DNA of 21,266 nt from a virus: the IMG/VR virus record IMGVR_UViG_3300044715_000101, positions 1 through 21,266 of that record; one strand, written 5' to 3'. The translations under genes and the position numbers were made by a program. Shown piece by piece: positions 1-21,266 of this stretch (positions are counted from its first letter, which is position 1; every line of letters starts with the position of its first letter). The notes beneath the pieces are model-generated. The model saw only the letters and a list, made by a program, of their open reading frames with translations, did no database searches and was not told the DNA's origin.

Positions 1-3000
1 TATAGGGCTTGTCGTTCGTCTCATCGTTGAAACGCCGCATGCTTTCGATGTCCAGTTTAATGGGAGCGTCAGGGCTTTGGTAGAAAGCGGACTTGTTAAT
101 CCTAGAGCGAACACGAATACCTCCAGCCTCAGTTCCTAGGTCAATGCTTCTAGAAAGTCTTCTTACAACTTCTTTGTCAGTAGCAACCTGTATTTCTGTG
201 TCCCAGTCTTTTGCCATTATGTATGTGTTTCCAGCACCAAACATATTGTCTCTAACGCCAACAGGGGCTCCTTCTGTATTTATAATTTCTCCATCAAAGT
301 TTTCTACTCCCAAGGCTCTGACTCTTTCTAGCAATTCAGAATAGAACATGTTTCCATATCCTTGGCCTTGATATTCTCCAATAGCATAAACGCTAACATT
401 CTTAAGAGTTTTACCGTCTTGTGAAAGTTCGCCTCCAATGCTTCCATAGGAATCGCCAAAATTGTCTTCAAACTCCAAGCCTATGTCGAAGTAATGCTTA
501 CCTTTTCCAGCAGACATTTTCTTTATTCTAAACACTGTCTTGTGACCAACGACATCTCCCTTCTTTGTTTTGCCATTAGAACCAACATATTGCCATCTTC
601 CTCCATTTCGAGTAGCCCAATTGCCAACAAATCCAGTATTCCACGCCTCTGAAGTCATGTCATATCTTGTCCCGCCAAGGGTAGGAGTCATGTTCTCTTT
701 CTTGGAGAAATAGTTTCTCTTACCCATCGGGCCTTTGCCCTTACCGTAGAAGGCATCGTAGTTAAGGTCTGTGATTTCGTCAGCGGTCTGGAACATCTGG
801 CGACTGCCAGTTGAGTCAACGACACCTTCCTTGCCTTCTAGGAAGTCAAGTTTGGCTTGGAATTCTCTCTTCAACTGAAGCATTCTTGTAGCCTCAGGGG
901 AGTATCTCTGCATGCCTCTGACACCAGCCATGACCTCGCTAATCTTGAGCAACTTGGCTCTCAGGTCTGTGATTTGCTTTTCTCTGTCAACGCCTCCAAT
1001 TTCGTCAGGATTCTGGAACATAGTTCCACCCTGAGCCCTGTTGATTTCGTTAAGCCTATTCTGGGCAACTCTTCTTCTGTCCTGCAAAGAACTATAAGAA
1101 GGGTTGTTTCCACGCCTACCAAACTTGTCTTGCTGTGCAATCTTTTCGCCAAGTCTTTGAACTTCATTTTCAAGTGAAGCCTTTTCTTCTGCAATTGTTT
1201 CGTATCTTGGGCTAGGCGTAAGTGCATCAGGGTTCTGATACATCTGGTTCATCATCACGCCATTAGGTCCGACAGCACCCTCGCTAGTAGGCGTAGGAAT
1301 CATCGCTCTGTAATAGCCCTTCTCATTCATACGCATCCGCATGACTTCGCCATCGACTGTGTGGAGGCCGTGTAGACCATCCATGTGCATCCAGAACCAC
1401 GGGTTGTTCTGCTCAGCACCACGGTCACGCTTCTGGTAAGGATGCCATTCGGTCTCAGCCGCAGAGAACAGCAACTGAGCCTTTGTGTTCGGGCTTGCAC
1501 CGATAGCCGCAACGACATGCTTTCTCTTAAGTCTGGCATTATCGTCAGCACCGAAGAAGTCGGTGGCAGGAATCATCCCGCTACCGCTGTATTCGTCCAT
1601 CGTCTTGAAGATGTCCGCCTTGAATTCGTGGAGACCGTTGTAAAGTTTCTGCAACTCAGGGCTTTGATTCCACAGGATAGTGCCTCTTCTGTTAAGGGCA
1701 TCGATATCGACCGACCTGACATTGAATCTGAAGTGAGGACGCTTGTAGTCCTGATTCGGGTTCTTCAGGTCTTTGAGCGTTATCTTAAACTGCATGTCAT
1801 ACGGAACGAATGTGACATCTCTGGGAGAGAACTCGTCACCCCATTCACGGCTTAGGATAGTTCCGTCACGCTGAGCCTGTGTGAATCCAAGATACTTGCC
1901 GTTAATAACATTCGGGCGAGAGAAACCACCATCAGCAATGATAGGAGCAAGCAGTCTGACATTGTCAGCCACAGCCTTAGGGACATACTTCTCGATAATC
2001 TTGAAAGCCTTTTCCGTAGGAATGCCTCGGAAGACGACATGCTGGCCCTTGGCAAGAGCCTCTTTCATCATCTCGCCCATCTTACCCGTAGGGGTGGTTC
2101 TGGCTCTGCCTCTCTTGCCAAAAGAAGTGGCATCTCTAGCCGCATAAATACCGTCACGCTTAGCCTTTTCAATCTGAGCATTAACAATGTCGTCAAGGCC
2201 AAGACCCATTCCCTTGTAGTCAGGAGACTGGAACAGGAAGCCCTGACCACTCTTACCGACAGTGTCGAGAGTGCCGTCTGTGCCATCCATCGCAAGGTCA
2301 ACATCGTCCTTGTCGTTATAGACATAGAAATCCAGACCGTTAAGGGCGGCTTCGTCAACCGTGGCAAGTTCAGCCAACTCTTCAATCATAGCCTTACCAG
2401 CCATGTGGGTCTCCTGATTATACTGGAGCATCGGCTTAAGGCCAGTCACCTCACCATTGGGGCCATACTGAAGTCTGTTTTCGTAGCCGTAGATTCTGGC
2501 GTGGTCCTTAATCTGGGCAGGGCTAAAGCGAACAAGGTCTGTCCTGTTAAGGCCAGCGTTCTTCATGTTCTTGTCGTTGTAGAAACGGACAAGGTCTTTA
2601 AATGTGTCGGCAAGAATCGGGTCGATTCTGACACCGCTGTTTCTGCTCTTCTTGAACCAGTCCACAAAGGCATCCTTAGTTCTAATGTCAGCACCAAGGT
2701 TGGTGGCATCACGCAGGGCTCTATTATAGAACGAGTCAGCAATGTCGTTCAGAAGACCTCTAGCAAAGCCAAGGTCTCCGCCTCTGAAAATATAGTCAAA
2801 CGGCTGACCATCTTCCCAACCAAGGAAAATAGCCTCGCCAAGTTCTTCGCAGAATCTATTAAACGAGTCAGCGACCTCAGGGTTTTCAATCTTGCCAGTC
2901 TGTTCAAACTCGTTGATGGCCTTAATCCATCTTCCGCCTTCGGCTCCCATGTCTCTGGCTCTACCGCCAATGCGGTCATAGGTCTCAAGCATGAACTTTA

Positions 3001-6000
3001 CCGTGTCGGCCCTGTTAGTAAACGCTCTGTTAAGGAGCCAGTTTCTGACTTCATTTGTGATTGTCTGCTGATGATTCACCTCACGGTAAACCTGATTCAT
3101 CACATGCCACAGTTCGCCAAGGGGGGCTGTTTTGGCAATCTGAACCATCTGCGTTCTGGACTCAGATGGCATAGGGCCAACAAACGGAACTTTCTTTGTC
3201 TTAGGCGTAGCAGTCCTATTCATGTTCTTCTTTCTGGCTCTTTCCTCAATCCTACGAAGATTTTCATACGAAACACGAAGTCTTTCGGAGATTTTCTTAC
3301 CCTGAGGGGTCTTGTAAAACAATTCCATAGCCCTAGCCATTTCCTTGGGCAACATCGTCTGAGTCATCTTTGGGTCGTTATCCTTAAAGATGCCACGCAG
3401 GTCTTCAGGCTTACCTCTATTGAAGATTTTTCTAAGGAATTGGTCAAATAACTTGTCTGATTCAGCACCAAGTTCTTCAGCCTCTTTTTGGGCAGTCTTA
3501 ATTTCTGCGTCAAGTTTAGGGTCTCCAACAGTTTCATCAAGAGCCTTCACGCTTTCGATTTTCTTTTCTATGGCTTTGCTTGCTTCCCCATACTTAGCGT
3601 TTGCTTCATCGTGTCTTTTAACAAGTTCTGGGTTAGCCTTGTCTACCGCTTCGCCAACTTTCTGCATCTGCTCCCAAGTAAGGTCATTAAATGTAGTATT
3701 TTCTGGCAGATTTTCTCTATTCGCAAAGGCTTTTGTTTCTTTTTCAATTGCGGCGTTTCTTTCTTCATTAACCTTGCCCATTTCTCTTTCGTAAATAGCG
3801 ACTTTTTCGGCCTCAAGTTCTTTGATTTTGGCTTTCTTTGTTTCTCTTGTTACGGTTCTTTTTTTCTTCGGAGTAGAGGGTTCTTGGGCTTTGGGAGGAA
3901 GGACATTGCCATCCTTATCCATAGCACCTGCATCCTTGAGAATCTCAACAACCATACTGTTTACTTCTTTTGCAAACTCTTCAGCCTGTTGACGAAGAAG
4001 TTTTTCGTGCGGAGTTTTAGGGTCTTTTATAAATCTCTTTTCAAAATTATTCTTAGTAGGCCATCCGCTTGTTCCTGCTTCTATTTCTTTTAAGAACTCT
4101 GCCCTTGCCTCAGGGGTTGCCGACAAAAGCCATTCTGCATCGGCAAGAGCATCCATCATTACTTTTCTTTTAAATTCAGAAATTTCCAGTTCTTTTTTTA
4201 TTTCGGCCTTACGCTTTTCAATTTCATTGGCCTCTTCAGTTAGTTTTCTTATGGCTTCCTTGTCTTCTAACAAATTTGCCTCTTCAATCTCCTTGTTAAT
4301 TTGTTGAATTCTTTCATTAAGCGGTTTATGCTGTTCTTTTATTGCTTCATTTTCTGCGGCCCTCGCTTCTTCAAATTTAGCATTAGCACTATCTACCTGT
4401 TTTGCGACTCTTTCCTTTTCTTTGTCGCTGAGTTTGTCCCACACCTCCTTTATTGGGCCTTCTGTCATTCCAGACACAATCTTCAAAAACGAATCTTTTG
4501 TTGGGCCAATGTTTGCTATAAAAAATTTAGTCGCATTAAATTGTCTTACATTTGTATCAGCAAGCCATTCCTCTCTTGTCCAAGTCTTAGGTTTCCACGA
4601 ACCGTCAGAAGAAGTTCCAGCCTGAGTCGCTGTAGGGTCAATTATGTTACCTTCTTCGTCAAAGTCTATCCGTTCCTCAGGCTTAGGCTCAAAGGAATAA
4701 TCAACGCCATCGGAAACTTCAACATCAGGTCTAGCCTTTTCAGGGCCATAACGCACAACAACATTGCCAGCCGCATCTCTTACAGACTGGACATTATCAA
4801 TGTTGATAATCACATGATACATGCCAGTTTCCCCATTCTTCCAAAGAGCGTAAGGCCGTGTTTCGACCCTGCCAGTAATGGGGTTCATGTTCGTAAACAT
4901 TCCGTTCCAACCCTGACCACCAGCATTCTTAGCCGCAACAGCCTGAAATAGTGTTTCACCCATAGGGGTGAGTTTCTGTGTTCTCTTCTTTTGCTTTGTA
5001 GGCGGATTGGGAGCCTGAGTCTGAACAGGTGCATTAGGGTCAACAGGCTTAAGCGTATCAGGCTTAATCTCCATCTGAGGAACAGCAACATCAACCTCGG
5101 TTTCCTCCCAGTATGTCATGTTGGGGTCGTTTTCCAACGCCTTCACCATGTCATCATAATTCATGTATGAGACGGTAACATTCTTACTCTTTTCAAGACC
5201 CATCACATGACTGATGGCACGAAGGGCTTCATCCTGACCATGCTGTTCCTTGATGTCGTTGATGAACTTCATCACACGCTCTTGCTTCAGCAGGTCTCCC
5301 TTGTCCTTAAGGTTGACCATGTGTTCGTCAAACTCCTTATAAAGAGACTCTTTGGCAAACTTTCCGCTAAGTGTGCCGTAAGCATAGCCGACATTGTGAC
5401 CGATAGCACCGATGGCAACGCCAGTTCCGATACCGCCAGCCGCACCTTCTTCACCAGCCGTGGCATAACCAATAGCACCGCCATAGATACCACCGTGGAT
5501 AGTTGTCTTGGCAAGGTCAGACATGTAGATGCCGATAGGACTGGAAGCCCTGATAGCATTACCAACTACGGAATCGGCATTCTTAGCACCCTTTGTGGCA
5601 AGGTCAGAGATGCCTTCTCCAAGATACTTAAGACCCTTAAGGCCAGCATAGACGGAGGTTATAGGAAGAGCATACGGAATAGAGAAGGCGGAGTAGACAC
5701 CGCCAACGCCCATCAATGCGTGAGTAAGAGACCTCGGCCCCCTTTCGCCACCATGACCAGCATGGACACGCTGAGCCTTTACATCCCCAGTAACGGGAGA
5801 CACATTGTGCCTAACGCCAGTAAGTCTTTCCATGCCACCAGTGATGGCATCAAACATGGCATCGACAGGCTTGGTGAGCGTGTTAGATGTCTTAATCATC
5901 ATCTCACCGAAAGAATTAAGGAATGTAGCCTTAGCCGCATTTCTGCTGGCTGTAGCCGCAACAGCGTGACCAACAGCGTTGCCAGCCTGACCAGACTTAA

Positions 6001-6919
6001 GAGCCGCCGCACCAGCCTTAGCCGCAACATTCTTAGCCGCCGCACCGCCACCAAAAGTCATAAAGGTTGTCGGGTCTAGGACATAGGAAGCGGCTGTTGC
6101 CAGTTCCTTGTTCACACCGACAAAGTCATCAATCGTGTCGCCAAACTGCTTACCGAAAAGTTTTTCGTATGTCTGTCTGTCAGGCATGAACGCATTCGTC
6201 TTGCCAGCCAGAATCTTTTCGGACTGAGAGTTCCACCTAGACAGGTCAAGGAAGTCTTCATAAGCCACATCCTTGTCGTCAGTTGGGTTCACAAACATTC
6301 TGTAAAGCGGAGAGTCTGGATGATTAGCCGCCATGACAGCAAGACCACCAAGGTCTCTTGTGCCTCTAGCAAAGCCTTCAACAGCAGAAGCACCAAACGC
6401 AACAGCAAGACCAGCAACAGGAGTTCCTACAAGGCCAACGCCAATAGCAAGACCGACTTTCTTCCAGTCTGTAGCGGCAGAAAGAACACCACCAGCGATT
6501 TCTTTGCTTGCTTGAACAGCACCATCACCGACAGCACCCCAAAAGTTGAAGTGTTGCTTTCTACGCCAGTCGTCATAGGCAATAAATTCTTCCTTAGAAA
6601 TTGTGTTGGCATCGATATCAACGCCATTTGCATTAAGGTCAGCAATCTTAGCCGCAACTTCTTCGCCAGTAAGCGGAGCCTTCATCATCTCTAGTAACTT
6701 CTCGTCAGAGAAATCTCCCATAGACGGAGCCTTTCTCATAGCGTTAGGGCTCATGCCCTGAACGCTTGCTACTTCGGCATACGAAGGTCTTGTTCGAAGA
6801 ACTGGCTCTTCACCCTCCATGCCAGATGCAAAACTGGCATCCCTTATGGGCTGTTCAGTCGCACTGGACTTTAAAAACTGTTTAGGAGATTGAAAGAGAG
6901 GGTCGTTATTCTGAGCCAT
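1..6919 (-). CDS. Giant modular internal virion / polyvalent-type protein (C-terminus beyond window)
   Basis: One uninterrupted frame begins at the ATG at 6919 (MAQNNDPLFQ...) and stays open for at least 2306 codons to the left edge, so the C-terminus is missing. The start overlaps the end of the 733-residue gene by 14 bases. Visible parts in order: short charged N-terminus; several Gly/Ala-rich hydrophobic segments (about residues 150-180, 275-330, 395-430, 475-515) that could enter membranes; a Pro/Lys-rich linker (about 608-650); a small beta-like domain (about 655-740); a long Lys/Glu coiled coil (about 825-1165); a helical region rich in Asn, Asp and Arg (about 1170-1890); then linker-separated small modules including an acetyltransferase-like segment. 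Position after two other probable internal virion proteins suggests a protein packaged in the capsid and ejected with the DNA, as inferred for other very large podovirus proteins. No catalytic domain such as a polymerase or transglycosylase was recognised. A DarB-like or polyvalent defence-countering role is inference. Confidence 0.85.
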   Translation of the reverse strand, partial: MAQNNDPLFQSPKQFLKSSATEQPIRDASFASGMEGEEPVLRTRPSYAEVASVQGMSPNAMRKAPSMGDFSDEKLLEMMKAPLTGEEVAAKIADLNANGVDIDANTISKEEFIAYDDWRRKQHFNFWGAVGDGAVQASKEIAGGVLSAATDWKKVGLAIGVGLVGTPVAGLAVAFGASAVEGFARGTRDLGGLAVMAANHPDSPLYRMFVNPTDDKDVAYEDFLDLSRWNSQSEKILAGKTNAFMPDRQTYEKLFGKQFGDTIDDFVGVNKELATAASYVLDPTTFMTFGGGAAAKNVAAKAGAAALKSGQAGNAVGHAVAATASRNAAKATFLNSFGEMMIKTSNTLTKPVDAMFDAITGGMERLTGVRHNVSPVTGDVKAQRVHAGHGGERGPRSLTHALMGVGGVYSAFSIPYALPITSVYAGLKGLKYLGEGISDLATKGAKNADSVVGNAIRASSPIGIYMSDLAKTTIHGGIYGGAIGYATAGEEGAAGGIGTGVAIGAIGHNVGYAYGTLSGKFAKESLYKEFDEHMVNLKDKGDLLKQERVMKFINDIKEQHGQDEALRAISHVMGLEKSKNVTVSYMNYDDMVKALENDPNMTYWEETEVDVAVPQMEIKPDTLKPVDPNAPVQTQAPNPPTKQKKRTQKLTPMGETLFQAVAAKNAGGQGWNGMFTNMNPITGRVETRPYALWKNGETGMYHVIINIDNVQSVRDAAGNVVVRYGPEKARPDVEVSDGVDYSFEPKPEERIDFDEEGNIIDPTATQAGTSSDGSWKPKTWTREEWLADTNVRQFNATKFFIANIGPTKDSFLKIVSGMTEGPIKEVWDKLSDKEKERVAKQVDSANAKFEEARAAENEAIKEQHKPLNERIQQINKEIEEANLLEDKEAIRKLTEEANEIEKRKAEIKKELEISEFKRKVMMDALADAEWLLSATPEARAEFLKEIEAGTSGWPTKNNFEKRFIKDPKTPHEKLLRQQAEEFAKEVNSMVVEILKDAGAMDKDGNVLPPKAQEPSTPKKKRTVTRETKKAKIKELEAEKVAIYEREMGKVNEERNAAIEKETKAFANRENLPENTTFNDLTWEQMQKVGEAVDKANPELVKRHDEANAKYGEASKAIEKKIESVKALDETVGDPKLDAEIKTAQKEAEELGAESDKLFDQFLRKIFNRGKPEDLRGIFKDNDPKMTQTMLPKEMARAMELFYKTPQGKKISERLRVSYENLRRIEERARKKNMNRTATPKTKKVPFVGPMPSESRTQMVQIAKTAPLGELWHVMNQVYREVNHQQTITNEVRNWLLNRAFTNRADTVKFMLETYDRIGGRARDMGAEGGRWIKAINEFEQTGKIENPEVADSFNRFCEELGEAIFLGWEDGQPFDYIFRGGDLGFARGLLNDIADSFYNRALRDATNLGADIRTKDAFVDWFKKSRNSGVRIDPILADTFKDLVRFYNDKNMKNAGLNRTDLVRFSPAQIKDHARIYGYENRLQYGPNGEVTGLKPMLQYNQETHMAGKAMIEELAELATVDEAALNGLDFYVYNDKDDVDLAMDGTDGTLDTVGKSGQGFLFQSPDYKGMGLGLDDIVNAQIEKAKRDGIYAARDATSFGKRGRARTTPTGKMGEMMKEALAKGQHVVFRGIPTEKAFKIIEKYVPKAVADNVRLLAPIIADGGFSRPNVINGKYLGFTQAQRDGTILSREWGDEFSPRDVTFVPYDMQFKITLKDLKNPNQDYKRPHFRFNVRSVDIDALNRRGTILWNQSPELQKLYNGLHEFKADIFKTMDEYSGSGMIPATDFFGADDNARLKRKHVVAAIGASPNTKAQLLFSAAETEWHPYQKRDRGAEQNNPWFWMHMDGLHGLHTVDGEVMRMRMNEKGYYRAMIPTPTSEGAVGPNGVMMNQMYQNPDALTPSPRYETIAEEKASLENEVQRLGEKIAQQDKFGRRGNNPSYSSLQDRRRVAQNRLNEINRAQGGTMFQNPDEIGGVDREKQITDLRAKLLKISEVMAGVRGMQRYSPEATRMLQLKREFQAKLDFLEGKEGVVDSTGSRQMFQTADEITDLNYDAFYGKGKGPMGKRNYFSKKENMTPTLGGTRYDMTSEAWNTGFVGNWATRNGGRWQYVGSNGKTKKGDVVGHKTVFRIKKMSAGKGKHYFDIGLEFEDNFGDSYGSIGGELSQDGKTLKNVSVYAIGEYQGQGYGNMFYSELLERVRALGVENFDGEIINTEGAPVGVRDNMFGAGNTYIMAKDWDTEIQVATDKEVVRRLSRSIDLGTEAGGIRVRSRINKSAFYQSPDAPIKLDIESMRRFNDETNDKPY
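62..2239 (-). repeat. Recurring [F/L/M][F/Y]Q-x-[P/A]-D linker motif in the giant protein
   Basis: Five short matches lie in frame in the C-terminal half of the giant protein: LFQSPD at 2216-2239, MYQNPD at 1223-1243, MFQNPD at 998-1021, MFQTAD at 773-796 and FYQSPD at 62-85. Each sits at a change of character in the protein, for example just before or after a coiled-coil stretch or before the acetyltransferase-like segment. A sixth, weaker relative (LFQAV) is at 4943-4951, at the end of the proline-rich linker. Similar aromatic-Gln linkers precede domains in large phage and conjugative-element polyvalent proteins, as I recall them from that family. They may mark domain boundaries or protease sites; which one is inference. 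Confidence 0.6.
215..550 (-). other. GNAT acetyltransferase-like segment within the giant protein
   Basis: This segment reads as beta strands (HKTVFRI, KHYFDIGLEF), then a strand ending in EYQGQGYG, followed by an amphipathic helix (NMFYSELLERVRALGV) and a further strand. The Q-G-Q-G-Y-G run after a hydrophobic strand matches the acetyl-CoA-binding motif A (Q/R-x-x-G-x-G/A) of the GNAT superfamily, and the helix after it is where GNAT proteins place the pyrophosphate-binding helix. The later N-T-E-G-A-P-V-G-V-R-D-N segment would correspond to the motif B region. A substrate cannot be deduced. Small enzymatic modules of this kind are known in phage polyvalent proteins. The assignment rests on motif and secondary-structure pattern only. 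Confidence 0.45.
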
Positions 6920-9107
6920 TAGCGTATAGAGTTCCTTTTGCGTATTCAAGAGCCTCCTGCTCGGTCATATTCCTAGCAAGGGCAGAATTGAATCGAACCC
7001 TAAACTGACTCAAGTTGGAGTCAAGTCCATCATTATTTCCGTTTCTTTCAAAGGCAAAGCCATAGGCTGTTCCCTTGTCAACCATGCCAGCAAGAAGTCT
7101 AGCCCTGTATTCTTTAAGGGAGGCAATAGCCTGAGTAGAGAATATGGCATTAAACCCACTAGACGGGTCTCTAATAACCTTGTCCATGTAGATTTGGTCC
7201 TGATTAGACCACGCACCAGAACCACCAATTTCAGTTCTATTGGCGGATTGTGCGGCGTTTGTCAACGACTGGGCAATGCCAGAGATTTCAGTAGGTAGTA
7301 ACTTGTCAAACAGTGAAGCGTTTTCAGCAATCTCAAGCATTCGGTCAACTGACGCAAGGGCTCTTGTAGAAGTAAAGATTTCCTGTTTAACTGTGTTAGC
7401 CTTGTCAATGTCACCAACACGGACTTCGCCAGAGAACCTAAAGCCGTTAGCAGTAACACCGTTAAGGTTTCTAGCCTTGGCAAACTCTCCAGCCTTCCAC
7501 ATGGTCTGTTCATCGGCAAGGGACATGCCCTGAGATTGAACATCGGTGACAATCTTTGACTCGCCTCCGTAGGAGACAAAACGATGACCACCGCCAAGTG
7601 ACACGGAAACAGGTCTGACAATACCTTTCATCTGGTAAAAGGCTTCCTTAGTAAACGAATCAGGGACACCACCGTTGGCGTTAAAGAAGTTTGTCATTAT
7701 AGCATACTCGTCATCGGTTTGCTCTTCCATCGAGCGAGCCAGTTCAACCTGAGTGTTTCTATATTCTTCACGGTATCCTTCAGGAGACAGTGTAACGCTA
7801 CCAGCCTTGTATTCAGGGGTTGGTGCTTCAAGGGTTTTAAGTTTTGTCTGAAGTTGTTCCTTTCTTGCAGTTAACTTTTCTTCAAATCCTTTTCTTTTTT
7901 CTGTAAGTTGCTGAATTTTTGTTCTTGCTTTAAGTTGCTCATCCTTAGTCGGAGTATATTCTACATAATCTCCAGAAAGAGGGCTAGACCAACCTTGCAG
8001 TTCACCTTTAACTATAGATTCGTTTGCTGAAATCGCTATATTAAGTCTATCAATTTCAGTTTGAAAACCCCTTAGTGTCGTGTCATTATATTGAGTTTTC
8101 TTGCTTGTTCCAACTGGGCTTTGCCCAAGACTCCATTTGGCTGTATCTACATCGAGGTCTTTCTTTTCTGCCGTAAGGTCACGGATAGCCTTCATTTTGG
8201 CTAGTTCAGCCCTGATAAATCCAGTAGTTCTTCCAGCATCAATAGAGGGGTCAAGTGGCTTTTCGCCCTTGGATGTGTTCCATTCTGTTTGAGAACCAGC
8301 ATCAAACGCACTCTGGAAAGGTTTATAAAGAGGGTTTTTAATTGTGTCTATTTCTTCGCCAGTTCCTTCAAGTCCTTCAATGGCTTGCTGGTCAAATTCT
8401 CTGCTAATTCTGGACTTGCTGTAAAGATACTTTTCAACAGCCATGTTAGCATCCTTGACTGCCTTGGCTCTTTCCTTCTGGTCTGTAATCTTTTCGGCAG
8501 ATTCAACGGCTTCAAGCAACGGAGTAATTTCCTTTGTGTCAACCTGAACATCTTCAGCACCAACCTTGACGACAAAGCGTTCCTTTCCTTCGCCCGTCTT
8601 GGTCTTTGCAACGCCCTTTCTAGCATCTTCGGTAGCCTTAAGAGCCGCCTTAATTTTAGCCTGTTCGTCACGGACACGCTGGGCTTCTTTAAATTGCATC
8701 TCAGCAATGTCGTTCTGAGTCTTTCTAGCCCTAAGGTTTTCTCTAGCACCCTGAAGTTCTAGTTCCTTAGCGGAAACACCAAGGCCAGTTTCATAAGCCT
8801 TGATACCAGCAATCATCTGGCTTCTGGACATGTTGGCTACGCCGCCTTCATTGTTGACCGACTTAAACAGGTCGTGAACATACTTCGGAGCCGTATCATC
8901 TGGCTTGCCCTTTTCGTCTACGCCATACTGAGAAAGGATAGCACCTGTCTGTTTCTGGAGCATCTCCATGTCTTGTCTAGATGTGTTGAATTTCTCAACA
9001 GCCTGAAGCATGGAGTCGTGTATGCCTTGCTGTCCCTTGAGGACATCACGCATGTTTCCTGCGACATTAAATTGGTCGCCGCCCTGATATTGTCCAAATA
9101 TAGCCAT
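6906..9107 (-). CDS. Internal virion-like coiled-coil protein (733 aa)
   Basis: The protein begins MAIFGQYQGG and is mostly charged and helical, with coiled-coil-like stretches at about residues 110-175 and 325-445 (EKRKGFEEKL). A C-terminal domain at about 590-700 carries TEIGGSGAWSNQD, a pattern (R/T-E-I-x-G-x-G-x-x-S-x-x-D) that I associate with the C-terminal region of phage internal or injected structural proteins. There is no signal peptide, membrane segment or enzymatic motif. It lies between a glycine-zipper protein and the giant protein, 11 bases after the former and overlapping the latter by 14, so the three are probably co-translated. Context suggests the second of three internal/ejection proteins (compare T7 gp14, gp15, gp16), but sequence similarity to T7 gp15 is not visible. 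The start at 9107 has an A/T-rich leader and no Shine-Dalgarno. Confidence 0.75.
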   Translation of the reverse strand: MAIFGQYQGGDQFNVAGNMRDVLKGQQGIHDSMLQAVEKFNTSRQDMEMLQKQTGAILSQYGVDEKGKPDDTAPKYVHDLFKSVNNEGGVANMSRSQMIAGIKAYETGLGVSAKELELQGARENLRARKTQNDIAEMQFKEAQRVRDEQAKIKAALKATEDARKGVAKTKTGEGKERFVVKVGAEDVQVDTKEITPLLEAVESAEKITDQKERAKAVKDANMAVEKYLYSKSRISREFDQQAIEGLEGTGEEIDTIKNPLYKPFQSAFDAGSQTEWNTSKGEKPLDPSIDAGRTTGFIRAELAKMKAIRDLTAEKKDLDVDTAKWSLGQSPVGTSKKTQYNDTTLRGFQTEIDRLNIAISANESIVKGELQGWSSPLSGDYVEYTPTKDEQLKARTKIQQLTEKRKGFEEKLTARKEQLQTKLKTLEAPTPEYKAGSVTLSPEGYREEYRNTQVELARSMEEQTDDEYAIMTNFFNANGGVPDSFTKEAFYQMKGIVRPVSVSLGGGHRFVSYGGESKIVTDVQSQGMSLADEQTMWKAGEFAKARNLNGVTANGFRFSGEVRVGDIDKANTVKQEIFTSTRALASVDRMLEIAENASLFDKLLPTEISGIAQSLTNAAQSANRTEIGGSGAWSNQDQIYMDKVIRDPSSGFNAIFSTQAIASLKEYRARLLAGMVDKGTAYGFAFERNGNNDGLDSNLSQFRVRFNSALARNMTEQEALEYAKGTLYANGSE

Positions 9108-17552: not shown

Positions 17553-18548
17553 TTATATGAACTTGGACTTTATGATTGCCGCAAGGTCATTCTGGGAGTT
17601 AGATTTAACATATCTTCTGGTCGCATCAGGGTCGGCATTGTCCTTATACCTATTGCTGGGTGCGTAGTTAGATGTGGGCTGAACGGGGGCTCTCTGAATG
17701 TTGCCATTCTTGTTAGCCTGTTCTCTGAGTTTCATACCAGAAATATAGTCTCCAAGCACAACATTATAGTCGGGGAAACGGGTGATTTGGGGAAAAGCCT
17801 TGATGAACGATTCTGCAATTTGTCGTTCCTTGCTGGTCTTATCCTTGAGCCACGGATATGTCTTGTATGCAACGGAATCAACCTGAGCCTTTGTCTGAAT
17901 ATAATTCAGTCTCTTAGGTAGGTTTTCTTCCAGAGCGTCTATGGCGTTGAGTTTGATTCTCTTGACATCTTCTGCCGAGTATTCCGATTCAGTCCCGTCA
18001 GGGTTCGTAACAATGACACCGTTAGAGTTTTCTTCGCACCATCGTCTAACCGACCTAGCCTGAACAACTTCTTGTTCGATTTCTGCTATCGTGTTAAGAT
18101 TGGCGTAAGGAACCTTCTCGTCTGCCTTAATCACTATCTCTGTGGGCTTATCGGCCTCAACCTTAGCCTTCAGGTCGTTTAGTTCCGCTTCCAGTTTCGT
18201 AGCATGCTCTTCAGCCTGTTTACGAAGTGCCGTCAACTTATCTATACGCTTCTGAACGCCTTTGGTATTTTCACCATTGCCGCTTTCATTTGCCTCTTCG
18301 TCCTGTGAATGAACTTCTTCGCCTGTATCGTTCAGTGAGTCCGAGAATCCCAATAGCCCCGTATCACCAAACTGGTCTTCAGAACCGTCATTGTTGGCAG
18401 GTTCAGCCGCCATTTCGGAGCCATCTAGGTTTCCGAAATCCCTGCGGAGGATAGCCGCAAGGCTTTGTTCATTAAACTCACTAGACTGAGTTCTGTTTAC
18501 ACTTTCGCCGTTAGGCTGGGAAATGTCACCCGTTTCGTCTGTATTCAT
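17553..18548 (-). CDS. Scaffolding-like protein (331 aa)
   Basis: The first 95 residues are acidic, low-complexity and probably disordered (many Asp, Glu, Asn, Ser, Gly). A coiled coil follows at about 97-132 (QKRIDKLTALRKQAEEHATK), then a mixed central part with YPWLKDKTSKERQIAESFIK, and a basic, polar tail (PSNRYKDNADPDATRRYVKS ... AAIIKSKFI). This is the usual build of podovirus scaffolding proteins, which assemble inside the procapsid and leave or are degraded. The position directly before the capsid gene agrees. It is the first gene after the only sizeable intergenic region and so probably the first gene of a head operon driven from there. The start at 18548 (MNTDETGD) lacks a Shine-Dalgarno (leader ...CTTCCTAGC). 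No protease domain was seen, so scaffold without maturation protease is the best reading. Confidence 0.78.
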   Translation of the reverse strand: MNTDETGDISQPNGESVNRTQSSEFNEQSLAAILRRDFGNLDGSEMAAEPANNDGSEDQFGDTGLLGFSDSLNDTGEEVHSQDEEANESGNGENTKGVQKRIDKLTALRKQAEEHATKLEAELNDLKAKVEADKPTEIVIKADEKVPYANLNTIAEIEQEVVQARSVRRWCEENSNGVIVTNPDGTESEYSAEDVKRIKLNAIDALEENLPKRLNYIQTKAQVDSVAYKTYPWLKDKTSKERQIAESFIKAFPQITRFPDYNVVLGDYISGMKLREQANKNGNIQRAPVQPTSNYAPSNRYKDNADPDATRRYVKSNSQNDLAAIIKSKFI

Positions 18549-18600
18549 GCTAGGAAGAGCAAGGCTTTGTTTTGACAGCGTTTAAAGTTCGCAGAAACTA

Positions 18601-18642
18601 GTAGTAAGAATACTACAAAATATCACAAAATCAAGTATTTTG
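18601..18642 (-). repeat. Nested inverted repeats overlapping the promoter candidate
   Basis: Three perfect inverted repeats share this stretch. GTAGTA and TACTAC flank a 4-base loop at 18601-18616. CAAAAT and ATTTTG flank a 5-base loop at 18626-18642. CAAAATA (18616-18622) and TATTTTG (18636-18642) form a longer alternative that would exclude the second. They could be operator half-sites over the -35/-10 region, or a weak transcript hairpin. They are A/T-rich, so a strong intrinsic terminator is unlikely. Confidence 0.5.
18607..18634 (-). promoter_or_regulatory. Sigma70-like promoter candidate for scaffold and capsid
   Basis: Reading on the minus strand, TTGATT (18634-18629) and TATTCT (18612-18607) are separated by 16 bases. 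Both match four of six consensus positions. The -10 lies inside an inverted repeat. Strength is moderate at best, and the host sigma factor consensus is unknown. Confidence 0.4.
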
Positions 18643-18667
18643 ACCTTATTACCGATTTTATAGCATT

Positions 18668-18913: not shown

Positions 18914-21057
18914 TCAGGGAGACCCTCCTGTTGAATCTTGTCAGAGACGGGCGTTACGCCAGTTCTGCCAATCTGCTTGTTCTGCTGTTGCATAATTGAC
19001 ATCTGGAGGTTCTTGGTATAGTTTTCCATCAGGGCGGCTGTCATTTGGTCTCCCTGAGCCATTTGCTGAACCTTCGGGGACTTACCAGCGATTTCCTGAA
19101 GATATTGCATCTTAGTTCCAGCCGCAGGGTCGTTTTCGACATACTGAGGCTCGATACCCATAAGCATCTTAACAACATCGTTCTGGATGTCGTTATACAT
19201 CTTCTGGGACGCACTCTGCTGGTCGAGGATGATTTCCTTGGCAACATCAGGCGAGATGGCTTCCGTAAGTTTGGCAACCAACTTGTTTCTGTCGATAACG
19301 CCACCGCTGTCCAACGGAAGGACGAACTGACTGATAGCCTGAAGTTTCTTCATCACATATTCGTTGTCGAGGTCTCTGACATCAAACTTGACCTCAAAAT
19401 CAAACTGATTGGCAACATCCAGAGAGCCAAGGGCAAACTGATGACCAGTGATACGCTCAATTTCTTCCTTGGGCATATATTGGACGCAAAGTTGAAGCAA
19501 CTGCGTATAAATCTCAGCCCATGTGTTAAGCCAGCCGTCAACAGACATCTGCTGGAGCATCTGTGTCTTGTTAGGGTTGACCAGTTCGTGACTGAGGCCG
19601 AAATACATTGCGGCGTTCTTTTCAATCTGGTTAATAACCTCCATCGTGATGTTTACGGAACTGCGTGGAGTATCCATGAACCTGTAGTCATCTGGAGAAG
19701 TAACTGGCAGTTGAATGGCTGGACCAATTCTATTGATACCCTGAATTCTCTTCTTAACAAGAATTGGAGGCATGGTCTCAATGGCAGTTCTGTCTCTAAA
19801 CGCATCATGCTGAGCCTTAAGTTCGGCCTGTTCGGTAACAAGGATTTCAGGAATACCTCTGCTTTCCATTATTGACTTTCTAATGTGTTCTCTGCGGAGT
19901 TCGACAAACGGATACTTGCCGTGGGCATACTTCAACTTCTCATGCTTGAAGTAAGTATCCTTTTTTGCGTTAGGGCAGAAGATTGTGTAGTATATGCAAA
20001 GGTTGCCTTCTTCGTTAATCTGCTTTGTGTATGCGTAGATTATCTCAATCAGGTTTCTGGAACGATGCTCCTGCGAGCCCATGAGATTGGCAACCTGAAC
20101 AACATTGGGGTCCGTATACCAAGAAATGTTGCCAGATGTGGCGAGGGCATCCTCAACCGCTTCAGTGTCCCAGCCGTCAGACTTTACGAACGAACGAAGT
20201 TCGACTTCGCTCATGTATAGACGCTTAAATACAACACGGGCCTTCTGAAGTTCAATTGTTTCAGGCGGGAAGCACACTTCGTCATAAGGCTTAAGTGCCG
20301 TGAGTCTAGGAAGGTTCTTTGTAATTTGTTCGACAAAGACAGTTGCAACACCAGTGTTGCGAAGGTCTTCAATCATCTTTGTGATATATTCAGCCGAAGA
20401 ATTGGGCATGACAGACTGGAACATAGAAACAGCCATGTCGTCATCCTGACCAGACTTGATTGCTTCAGGCAGTCTTACGGCAGGATTCTCAGGTTCTTCC
20501 TGAGCAAGTTGAGCCGCCATTGCTTCAATTTCGTCCAGCCTTATTGTCTGAGGAAGCATTCCAATCATCTGCTCCCAAGAGATGTCCATTATAGCCCAAC
20601 CGTAGTGATTGGCATACTGAGCAAGAAGTTCTGCCTCTCTTCTGGACTCCATGCGAAGGCGAGAAGAAATGACATGAGTAAGAAGCGTAGACATCGAAGC
20701 CGCCATTGCACCGTCATCAACGGTAACGCCAGAAACTCTGAGTTTGGAGTTTTTCCAAGAGTTGACCCAAAGAGCGACCTGTTCGTTAATTACTCTGTCG
20801 ATGAGTCTGATTCTGACATCGGAAGCACCTTCAAACGGCATGGCGGGGTCGCCGTTGTTTCTCATGTCAGAATGTTTCTTGCCATCTGTCGTCTGACCAG
20901 CCCACTTGCAATAACGCAGGTCGTCCATGTCAGCCATGTCCTGAGTATTTCCGCCATTGTAAAGAGAACGCCTATACTCGCTGATAAGTTCCTGAATGTC
21001 AGGAACATCATTAGCCATAGCGAGTTTATCTCTCTTGGTGTTGTATTTATTGTCCAT
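18910..21057 (-). CDS. Portal protein (715 aa)
   Basis: Length and build fit the large podovirus portals (P22 type is about 725 residues). The N-terminal part has DDLRYCKWAGQTTDGKKHSD followed by MPFEGASDVRIRLIDRVINE, which I recognise as the usual start of this portal group: R-x-x-x-W-x-G-Q-[ST]-x-D-G-[RK]-K and P-[FW]-x-G-[AS]-S-D-x-R. The middle is a mixed alpha/beta body with a helix around NQIEKNAAMYFGLSHELVNP, and the C-terminus is Gln/Met-rich and helical (crown/barrel region), with MQYLQEIAGKSPKVQQMAQG. The portal forms the dodecameric DNA entry ring of the capsid. The gene overlaps the upstream helix-turn-helix gene by 11 bases and the 81-residue gene by 4. The start at 21057 has leader AAAATTTAAAAT and no Shine-Dalgarno; a later ATG (residue 14) is possible. 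Confidence 0.88.
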   Translation of the reverse strand: MDNKYNTKRDKLAMANDVPDIQELISEYRRSLYNGGNTQDMADMDDLRYCKWAGQTTDGKKHSDMRNNGDPAMPFEGASDVRIRLIDRVINEQVALWVNSWKNSKLRVSGVTVDDGAMAASMSTLLTHVISSRLRMESRREAELLAQYANHYGWAIMDISWEQMIGMLPQTIRLDEIEAMAAQLAQEEPENPAVRLPEAIKSGQDDDMAVSMFQSVMPNSSAEYITKMIEDLRNTGVATVFVEQITKNLPRLTALKPYDEVCFPPETIELQKARVVFKRLYMSEVELRSFVKSDGWDTEAVEDALATSGNISWYTDPNVVQVANLMGSQEHRSRNLIEIIYAYTKQINEEGNLCIYYTIFCPNAKKDTYFKHEKLKYAHGKYPFVELRREHIRKSIMESRGIPEILVTEQAELKAQHDAFRDRTAIETMPPILVKKRIQGINRIGPAIQLPVTSPDDYRFMDTPRSSVNITMEVINQIEKNAAMYFGLSHELVNPNKTQMLQQMSVDGWLNTWAEIYTQLLQLCVQYMPKEEIERITGHQFALGSLDVANQFDFEVKFDVRDLDNEYVMKKLQAISQFVLPLDSGGVIDRNKLVAKLTEAISPDVAKEIILDQQSASQKMYNDIQNDVVKMLMGIEPQYVENDPAAGTKMQYLQEIAGKSPKVQQMAQGDQMTAALMENYTKNLQMSIMQQQNKQIGRTGVTPVSDKIQQEGLPE

Positions 21058-21266
21058 ATTTTAAATTTTCGTTGATGTGGGTTATAAGTGAGTCTCTGTA
21101 AAATCTGTAATGACCCCCTTTAGTCTTGTAGACCTTAACGGTCCCAGACTTTCTAAGAGAGTCAAGGTATTGCCCTTCAAGCCCTGTCATAGTTTCTGCC
21201 ATTGAGCGAGTCAAGAGCAAAGGATACATAGACTCAGTAGGTATGTGTTGAGCCTCTGGCTTTAAA
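21047..21266 (-). CDS. C-terminal part of a protein with MerR/excisionase-like helix-turn-helix (N-terminus beyond window)
   Basis: The frame is open from the right edge to the stop at 21047, so at least 72 residues are present and the true start is outside the window. An internal ATG at 21229 need not be the start, because the 12 codons upstream of it (LKPEAQHIPTES) are also open. The segment LTRSMAETMTGLEGQYLDSL followed by KTKGGHYRFYRDSL has the scheme of winged helix-turn-helix domains in the MerR/excisionase class: a first helix pair, recognition helix, then the G-G-H-x-R-F/Y wing. It ends at about the second helix after the wing. It overlaps the portal start by 11 bases. A DNA-binding role, such as packaging-site recognition (terminase small subunit) or regulation, is inference. 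Confidence 0.65.
   Translation of the reverse strand, partial: LKPEAQHIPTESMYPLLLTRSMAETMTGLEGQYLDSLRKSGTVKVYKTKGGHYRFYRDSLITHINENLKYGQ

Follow-up and report, generated by a model that had tools for sequence, protein, structure and literature searches.

The described system nearest in concept to the locus analysed here is the leader pseudoknot of gene 32 in phages T4, T2 and RB69, an H-type pseudoknot in the 5' leader of a phage mRNA that PMC3014915 presents as the autogenous operator of gp32 and places, in T4, 67 nt upstream of the AUG with an A+U-rich stretch in between. The nearest tandem arrangement is STAXI, whose tandemly repeated pseudoknots are reported near DNA-handling genes and with frequent UUCG tetraloops (PMC2864571). 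A third point of comparison is the papA-type 5' stem-loop; according to PMC3997798, RppH and RNase E need single-stranded 5' ends, and 5' structures stabilise mRNA.

The leader reported here resembles that of gene 32 in having an H-type pseudoknot in a phage 5' leader upstream of a start codon, but it precedes scaffold and capsid genes rather than the gene of a single-stranded-DNA-binding protein, often consists of two knots of which the second includes the AUG, carries conserved CU and UG flanks and has no known protein ligand. With STAXI, as that family is described, it shares tandem pseudoknots but neither the gene setting nor the UUCG tetraloops. Like the papA-type stabilisers it would place a structure at or near the mRNA 5' end, where end-dependent decay would be hindered, although the structure is a pseudoknot instead of a hairpin, the 5' end is a predicted one and a second knot lies on the AUG. 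We class it only as an H-type pseudoknot leader, a member of neither the T4 gene 32 nor the STAXI class. Because many uncultured phages have these knots with compensating changes in sequence, it appears to be an RNA control element not described so far.

The gap before the scaffold gene and its pseudoknots

The window, that is, the whole stretch of DNA analysed, is a linear virus record of 21,266 bases with its head genes on the minus strand, and it fits a fragment because a frame of 2316 or more codons at 2-6949 runs off the record end. The genes around the leader are as follows.

21057-18910, minus strand: portal gene, a name that rests on the order of the genes and on weak similarity to an annotated portal protein
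18913-18668, minus strand: 81-aa ORF between portal and leader, with a match in 72 of 80 related loci
18548-17553, minus strand: scaffold protein gene (phrog_8865, E 6.8e-06)
17534-16449, minus strand: major capsid protein gene (SU10_MCP, PF17236; phrog_1328)

Upstream of the portal gene, a short ORF at 21047-21229 had an HTH-type match (phrog_668, E 4e-4). Related viral loci were collected by a capsid search, from which 80 of 185 were kept; scaffold and portal matches were each found in 78 of the 80. No host was found, the capsid profile matching two genome loci, one in a MAG (40% identity) and one in Pyramidobacter (24%). Two adjacent tRNA genes open locus L032 (47-208), and tRNA gene clusters of four and five occur in the long relatives L425 and L429.

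Scaffold and portal-side genes are separated by a gap at 18549-18667, whose 119 nt make it the largest between main genes in the ORF list, the runner-up being 18 nt; the preliminary description, which had singled it out as the one real gap of the record, was right in this respect. That description concentrated on inverted repeats in the gap. They are real but secondary. What is conserved stands immediately downstream of them, in minus-strand positions 18546-18599, where the leader of the scaffold and capsid genes consists of two tandem H-type RNA pseudoknots, a fold that is well supported by the comparison of related sequences. Its parts are listed below.

18576-18599, minus strand: pseudoknot PK1, AGUU-UCU-GCG-AACU-UUAAA-CGC-UG
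18599-18596 with 18589-18586, minus strand: PK1 stem 1 (S1), AGTT with AACT
18592-18590 with 18580-18578, minus strand: PK1 stem 2 (S2), GCG with CGC
18595-18593 and 18585-18581, minus strand: PK1 loops L1 (TCT) and L3 (TTAAA), followed by TG at 18577-18576
18568-18575, minus strand: A-rich linker between PK1 and PK2, TCAAAACA
18546-18567, minus strand: pseudoknot PK2, AAG-CCU-UGCU-CUU-CCU-AGCA-UG
18567-18565 with 18557-18555, minus strand: PK2 stem 1 (S1), AAG with CTT
18561-18558 with 18551-18548, minus strand: PK2 stem 2 (S2), TGCT with AGCA
18564-18562 and 18554-18552, minus strand: PK2 loops L1 (CCT) and L3 (CCT), followed by TG at 18547-18546

The two knots follow the same plan, with C and U on the 5' side of stem 2 and UG on its 3' side, and stem 2 could be extended by pairing the C with the G across a U.U (in PK1, C18594-G18576 over U.U 18593/18577). 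The scaffold start codon, 18548-18546, falls within the AGCA-TG of PK2, and its A is paired in the second stem. Plain RNA folding was unremarkable (z -0.86), by a pseudoknot-free method that cannot show such structures. In L373 and L374 a strong Shine-Dalgarno sequence, GGAGGTGAG, stands between PK1 and the start codon, and part of it could pair with CUCAC of PK1.

Searched against Rfam 15 at E up to 5, the window stretch gave no match overlapping the pseudoknots. At the gathering score no match lay over the leader either in the window plus 10 loci or in a set of 14 loci, and at E up to 2 there were three matches in 11 loci, none over a leader. The STAXI family model likewise gave no match overlapping the pseudoknots, whether in the window stretch or in the loci scanned. 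In size and topology PK1 is like the PreQ1-I riboswitch and other small ones of the H type; unlike them, the leader has no Rfam match in the window stretch and no metabolic gene downstream. Literature titles included none describing the element, which two surveys (gkx699; csbj 2023.11.010) may nevertheless have listed earlier.

Recurrence and covariation of the knots

We applied a strict pseudoknot descriptor (threshold 18) to 255 regions upstream of capsid genes, from loci that include near-duplicates, and obtained 141 matches, with at least one in 135 regions, as compared with 7.5 in shuffles and 7 on the reverse strand (553 kb). The position was narrowly defined, 140 of the 141 matches lying 780-1150 nt before the capsid start. 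Matched regions numbered 68 of 79 in the family of the window, 53 of 72 in that of L166, 12 of 55 in that of L126 and 2 of 49 in that of L104, most relatives of the last two capsid families having no strict match (43/55 and 47/49). Three loci of the window family had no match even at the loose threshold, and the loci with an L057-type gap (L057, L058, L059, L061, L063, L069 and L070) misfit the descriptor in stem 2 of PK1. When the flanks were not imposed (198 regions), CU and UG were both present in the best free pseudoknot of 42 of the 142 real regions matched versus 1 of the 86 shuffled ones. A PK2 ending in AUG was found at 52 of the 96 distinct scaffold ATG contexts, taken with up to three candidate ATGs per locus and with four of the 52 (L056, L060, L065 and L067) being PK1s whose end is an upstream AUG; the count was 0.28 in shuffles (maximum 2 in 40 rounds) and 0 of 104 at capsid ATGs.

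The stems were then followed in MAFFT alignments that were not fitted to structure, A1, A2 and A3 with 19, 12 and 8 sequences; a further alignment, A4, did not enter the counts because it was out of register. In A1, all 285 of 285 cells were paired and 22 were changed on both sides, against none in every slid control, a comparison that favours the counted structure over its slid versions because it was derived from the same sequences. The double changes in A1 are common to whole clades and therefore represent few events. Two counts did not rise above shuffles: four pairs carried a double change (shuffles 3.4, 262 of 500 reaching that value), and further pair types also numbered four (shuffles 5.4, 498 of 500 reaching it). 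Pairing was 96.5% in A3, with six pairs changed on both sides, and 93.8% in A2, where three sequences had their stem 2 displaced by one column in the MAFFT output. Stem 1 of PK1 does not vary in A1 and shows compensatory changes in A2 and A3, as stem 2 does in A1 and A3; the stems of PK2 have two variable pairs in A1, one per stem, and none in A3. Both interleaved stems of an H-type pseudoknot are thus kept by compensatory changes, for PK1 across A1-A3 and for PK2 in A1. The 63 distinct PK1 cores, from 141 loci, comprise 20 inner stem-1 types and 9 stem-2 types, pairing as such being required by the descriptor, and their loop L3 is 65% A and 1% G.

Stems alone cannot distinguish RNA from DNA, and a role of the conserved stretch in the form of single-stranded DNA, in replication or packaging for instance, has a parallel in what was considered for the STAXI pseudoknots (PMC2864571). 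The place in a 5' leader, the AUG inside PK2, the upstream box at -35 and the occurrence of G-U among the pairs (11/336) all speak for RNA instead, and we hold the single-stranded DNA role to be very improbable.

The exact PK1 pattern was present in 24 IMG/VR stretches and in none of the genome contigs searched. Those stretches include L093/L104, with capsid proteins of another family (phrog_1357, also Phage_capsid_4), and L095, where the capsid is Phage_capsid_3 and the element precedes the capsid gene itself; the L095 capsid search returned only L095's own contig. With a relaxed PK1 pattern, many of the matches listed were without stem 1 and in coding-like sequence. PK1 consensus near-matches in GenBank phages amounted to six records with a best E of 2, among which that in Vibrio phage 103E44.1 was inspected and does not fit. 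Nine distant GenBank relatives (L082, L083, L414, L415, L416, L417, L419, L420 and L421) had no match near the start codon in a leader scan that covered 81 nt of L417 and two gene starts of L420; L413 and L418, which begin at the capsid and the scaffold gene, respectively, fell outside it. There was also no match in the stretches scanned of L422, L423, L457, the MAG locus L456 and the L172 relatives L460-L463. On the MAG contig, a scaffold-like start at L456:340-365, ACTTGGTTGGATTACCATG, resembles the PK2 of the L020 group, although the descriptor does not match it.

Twelve long phage records contained 28 descriptor matches in 1.0 Mb of strand. In eleven of them exactly one match was followed, at a distance of no more than 63 nt, by the ATG of a scaffold or capsid gene, a long ORF of 329-375 aa; the twelfth, G004, had no match of that kind. 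The other 17 matches look like background, two of them preceding ORFs of 63 and 73 aa.

In phage P22 the scaffold is subject to post-transcriptional autoregulation, which counts in favour of a translational operator at which the scaffold or capsid protein would bind the pseudoknots and repress its own synthesis, as gp32 of T4 does. The position directly before the scaffold gene and the single such copy in 11 of 12 long records would suit such an operator, and gene 32 itself supplies a precedent (PMC3014915). Against this, the same plan stands before different capsid families (SU10_MCP, phrog_1357 and Phage_capsid_3) and the stem sequence is free, which together make one specific protein ligand less likely, so that we regard the operator as possible but doubtful.

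The upstream box and the inverted repeats

The features upstream of PK1 are given below.

18629-18634, minus strand: candidate -35 box TTGATT, 35 nt before the first base of PK1, mostly TTGAC in relatives
18607-18612, minus strand: candidate -10 box TATTCT, weak, a -10 signal being unsupported across relatives
18601-18606 and 18611-18616, no strand: dyad GTAGTA/TACTAC with a 4-nt loop, reported in the preliminary description and confirmed
18616-18622 and 18636-18642, no strand: repeat CAAAATA/TATTTTG, likewise reported earlier, not conserved
18626-18631 and 18637-18642, no strand: repeat CAAAAT/ATTTTG, whose right arm is common with that of CAAAATA/TATTTTG, not conserved

Read by eye, TTGATT-N16-TATTCT matches 8 of 12 consensus bases. 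It had been put forward as the only promoter-like site, which a consensus scan contradicted: 27 sites were listed in 20 kb, without excess over shuffles (23.9 +- 5.2), and this site was not among them. A promoter-like site in the gap is nevertheless upheld in part. Of 59 non-redundant regions, 31 have a TTGAC that starts 32-41 nt before PK1 (mean 1.1 and maximum 6 in shuffles), and in other sets the box was found in 28 of 54, in 14 of 30 (versus 0.4) and in 6 of 11 (versus 0.14), with TTGATT as the counterpart in the window; TTGA(C/T) is missing from the expected place in 20 of the 59 upstream regions. The other half of the proposed site did not hold up across relatives, the mean match to a TATAAT-like -10 being 3.41 versus 3.28 +- 0.14 in shuffles. 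As regards a sigma-70 type promoter, a -35 box at a fixed place was thus found and a TATAAT-like -10 was not. A promoter in the gap that serves scaffold and capsid is likely on this evidence.

The distance from box to PK1 is 31-40 nt with an sd of 1.8 (39 loci), a spread partly narrowed by the range searched, whereas that from PK1 to the AUG runs from -3 to 37 nt with an sd of 11 (58 loci). Because the recurrent TTGAC precedes PK1 by about 35 nt, transcription of the mRNA probably begins at PK1 or a few bases from it, as judged from box spacing. In the phrog_1357-capsid family (L353-L358 and L402) no TTGAC was seen before PK1, and the leader there may hence be transcribed from further upstream.

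The tight spacing of PK1 from the TTGA(C/T) box and its loose spacing from the AUG would also be expected if PK1 were a mere 5' stabiliser that blocks end-dependent decay, with PK2 and the AUG incidental, and the need of RppH and RNase E for single-stranded 5' ends points the same way (PMC3997798). However, PK2 lies exactly on the AUG in more than half of the scaffold contexts, with the four PK1s included, and at none of the capsid starts, and in the long records the element stands before one gene only and not at other promoters. We consider a purely stabilising role unlikely.

The repeats in the gap had been described as two alternative CAAAAT pairings and a GTAGTA dyad over the promoter-like site that may act as operators or as a switch between readthrough and new initiation. 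All are present to the base, including the shared right arm. The 119-nt gap holds three perfect inverted repeats of at least 6 bp with loops of 3-13, a mildly unusual set: in 1000 dinucleotide shuffles of the gap, at least three occurred in 4.1% and at least one in 33%. Conservation was examined in 54 distinct gaps from 79 loci, the window included, most of which have kept the sequence or the plan of the stretch that precedes the scaffold AUG. CAAAAT/ATTTTG and GTAGTA/TACTAC, and any inverted-repeat pair with a shared arm, were confined there to the window and to L002, a copy identical to it; L005 has the dyad one pair shorter, as TAGTA/TACTA. The switch between the two CAAAAT pairings was rejected, since these pairings are absent from every other gap read.

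What does recur in relatives is a dyad of other sequence near the presumed start. With arms of at least 6 bp at -30 to -1 of PK1, such dyads were found in 8 of 30 non-redundant loci (mean 0.8 and maximum 4 in 200 shuffles) and in 12 of 54 in another set (versus 1.7), upstream control windows showing no enrichment, and between L016 and L017/L018 both arms are changed with the dyad retained. In the strictest set of 11 loci, the same search gave 2 versus 0.2 +- 0.5 (maximum 2 in 200 shuffles), and arms of at least 5 bp at -45 to -1 were at chance, 3 versus 2.3 +- 1.3. Members of the phrog_1357-capsid family have a hairpin with lineage-specific arms directly upstream of PK1. The GTAGTA/TACTAC dyad therefore reflects, as far as these comparisons go, a looser, lineage-specific tendency toward a dyad at that place. 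Such dyads and the paired arm changes would fit operators or alternative hairpins, but the named repeats and shared-arm pairs are confined to the window sequence and the strictest set lacks enrichment at 5-bp arms, leaving only a slim chance that the repeats act as a switch.

Possible roles for the leader in scaffold and capsid expression

Comparison of the loci establishes the two pseudoknots, where they lie, and the box upstream of them. From these we infer, as a somewhat probable reading, a cis-acting 5' leader that would control scaffold and capsid expression after transcription has been initiated, PK1 shielding the 5' end and PK2 holding the AUG. The gap would carry the start of a scaffold-capsid transcript with a structured RNA leader; the TTGA(C/T) box would set the start at or near PK1, so that PK1 would form and shield the mRNA 5' end; and PK2, ending in the scaffold AUG and pairing its A, would occlude the start codon until the knot is opened by a ribosome or a factor. 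The near-fixed spacing between box and PK1 favours the 5'-end role for PK1, and a PK2 that sits on the AUG speaks for control of initiation. In 44 of the 96 scaffold ATG contexts PK2 was not seen, and start-codon gating would accordingly not be universal.

A probable 5'-terminal position before a long run of same-strand genes is also what would be expected of a nascent RNA that makes RNA polymerase resistant to terminators, as the put RNAs of phage HK022 do by acting on the polymerase. A PK2 on the AUG would be unexpected in that case, as would a single position in each of 11 of the 12 long records, and we find such antitermination highly improbable.

The window scaffold gene has no Shine-Dalgarno sequence before it, PK2 includes the AUG, and in relatives with PK1 only, PK1 lies 2-9 nt before the AUG. 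These observations would be consistent with knots that dock the 30S subunit for initiation without a Shine-Dalgarno sequence, like an internal ribosome entry site. However, AGGAGG is nearby at only one of 13 gene starts in the window, that of the 81-aa ORF, so that the lack before the scaffold gene is general rather than special, and some relatives (L298, L373) have a Shine-Dalgarno sequence between PK1 and the AUG. We rate docking as improbable. Its broader form, in which phages of low-Shine-Dalgarno hosts would use a pseudoknot-AUG to dock 30S for head proteins, as a bacterial counterpart of an IRES, with PK1 as the protected 5' end, has in our estimate just an outside chance.

Should a leader that shields the 5' end and holds the start codon be borne out, many uncultured phages would rely on a common RNA fold for control of the scaffold and capsid step, a fold which sequence searches miss because the stem sequence drifts freely. 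How scaffold synthesis is tuned post-transcriptionally is an old question of phage assembly, as in P22, and the leader would offer a short, testable RNA that bears on it.
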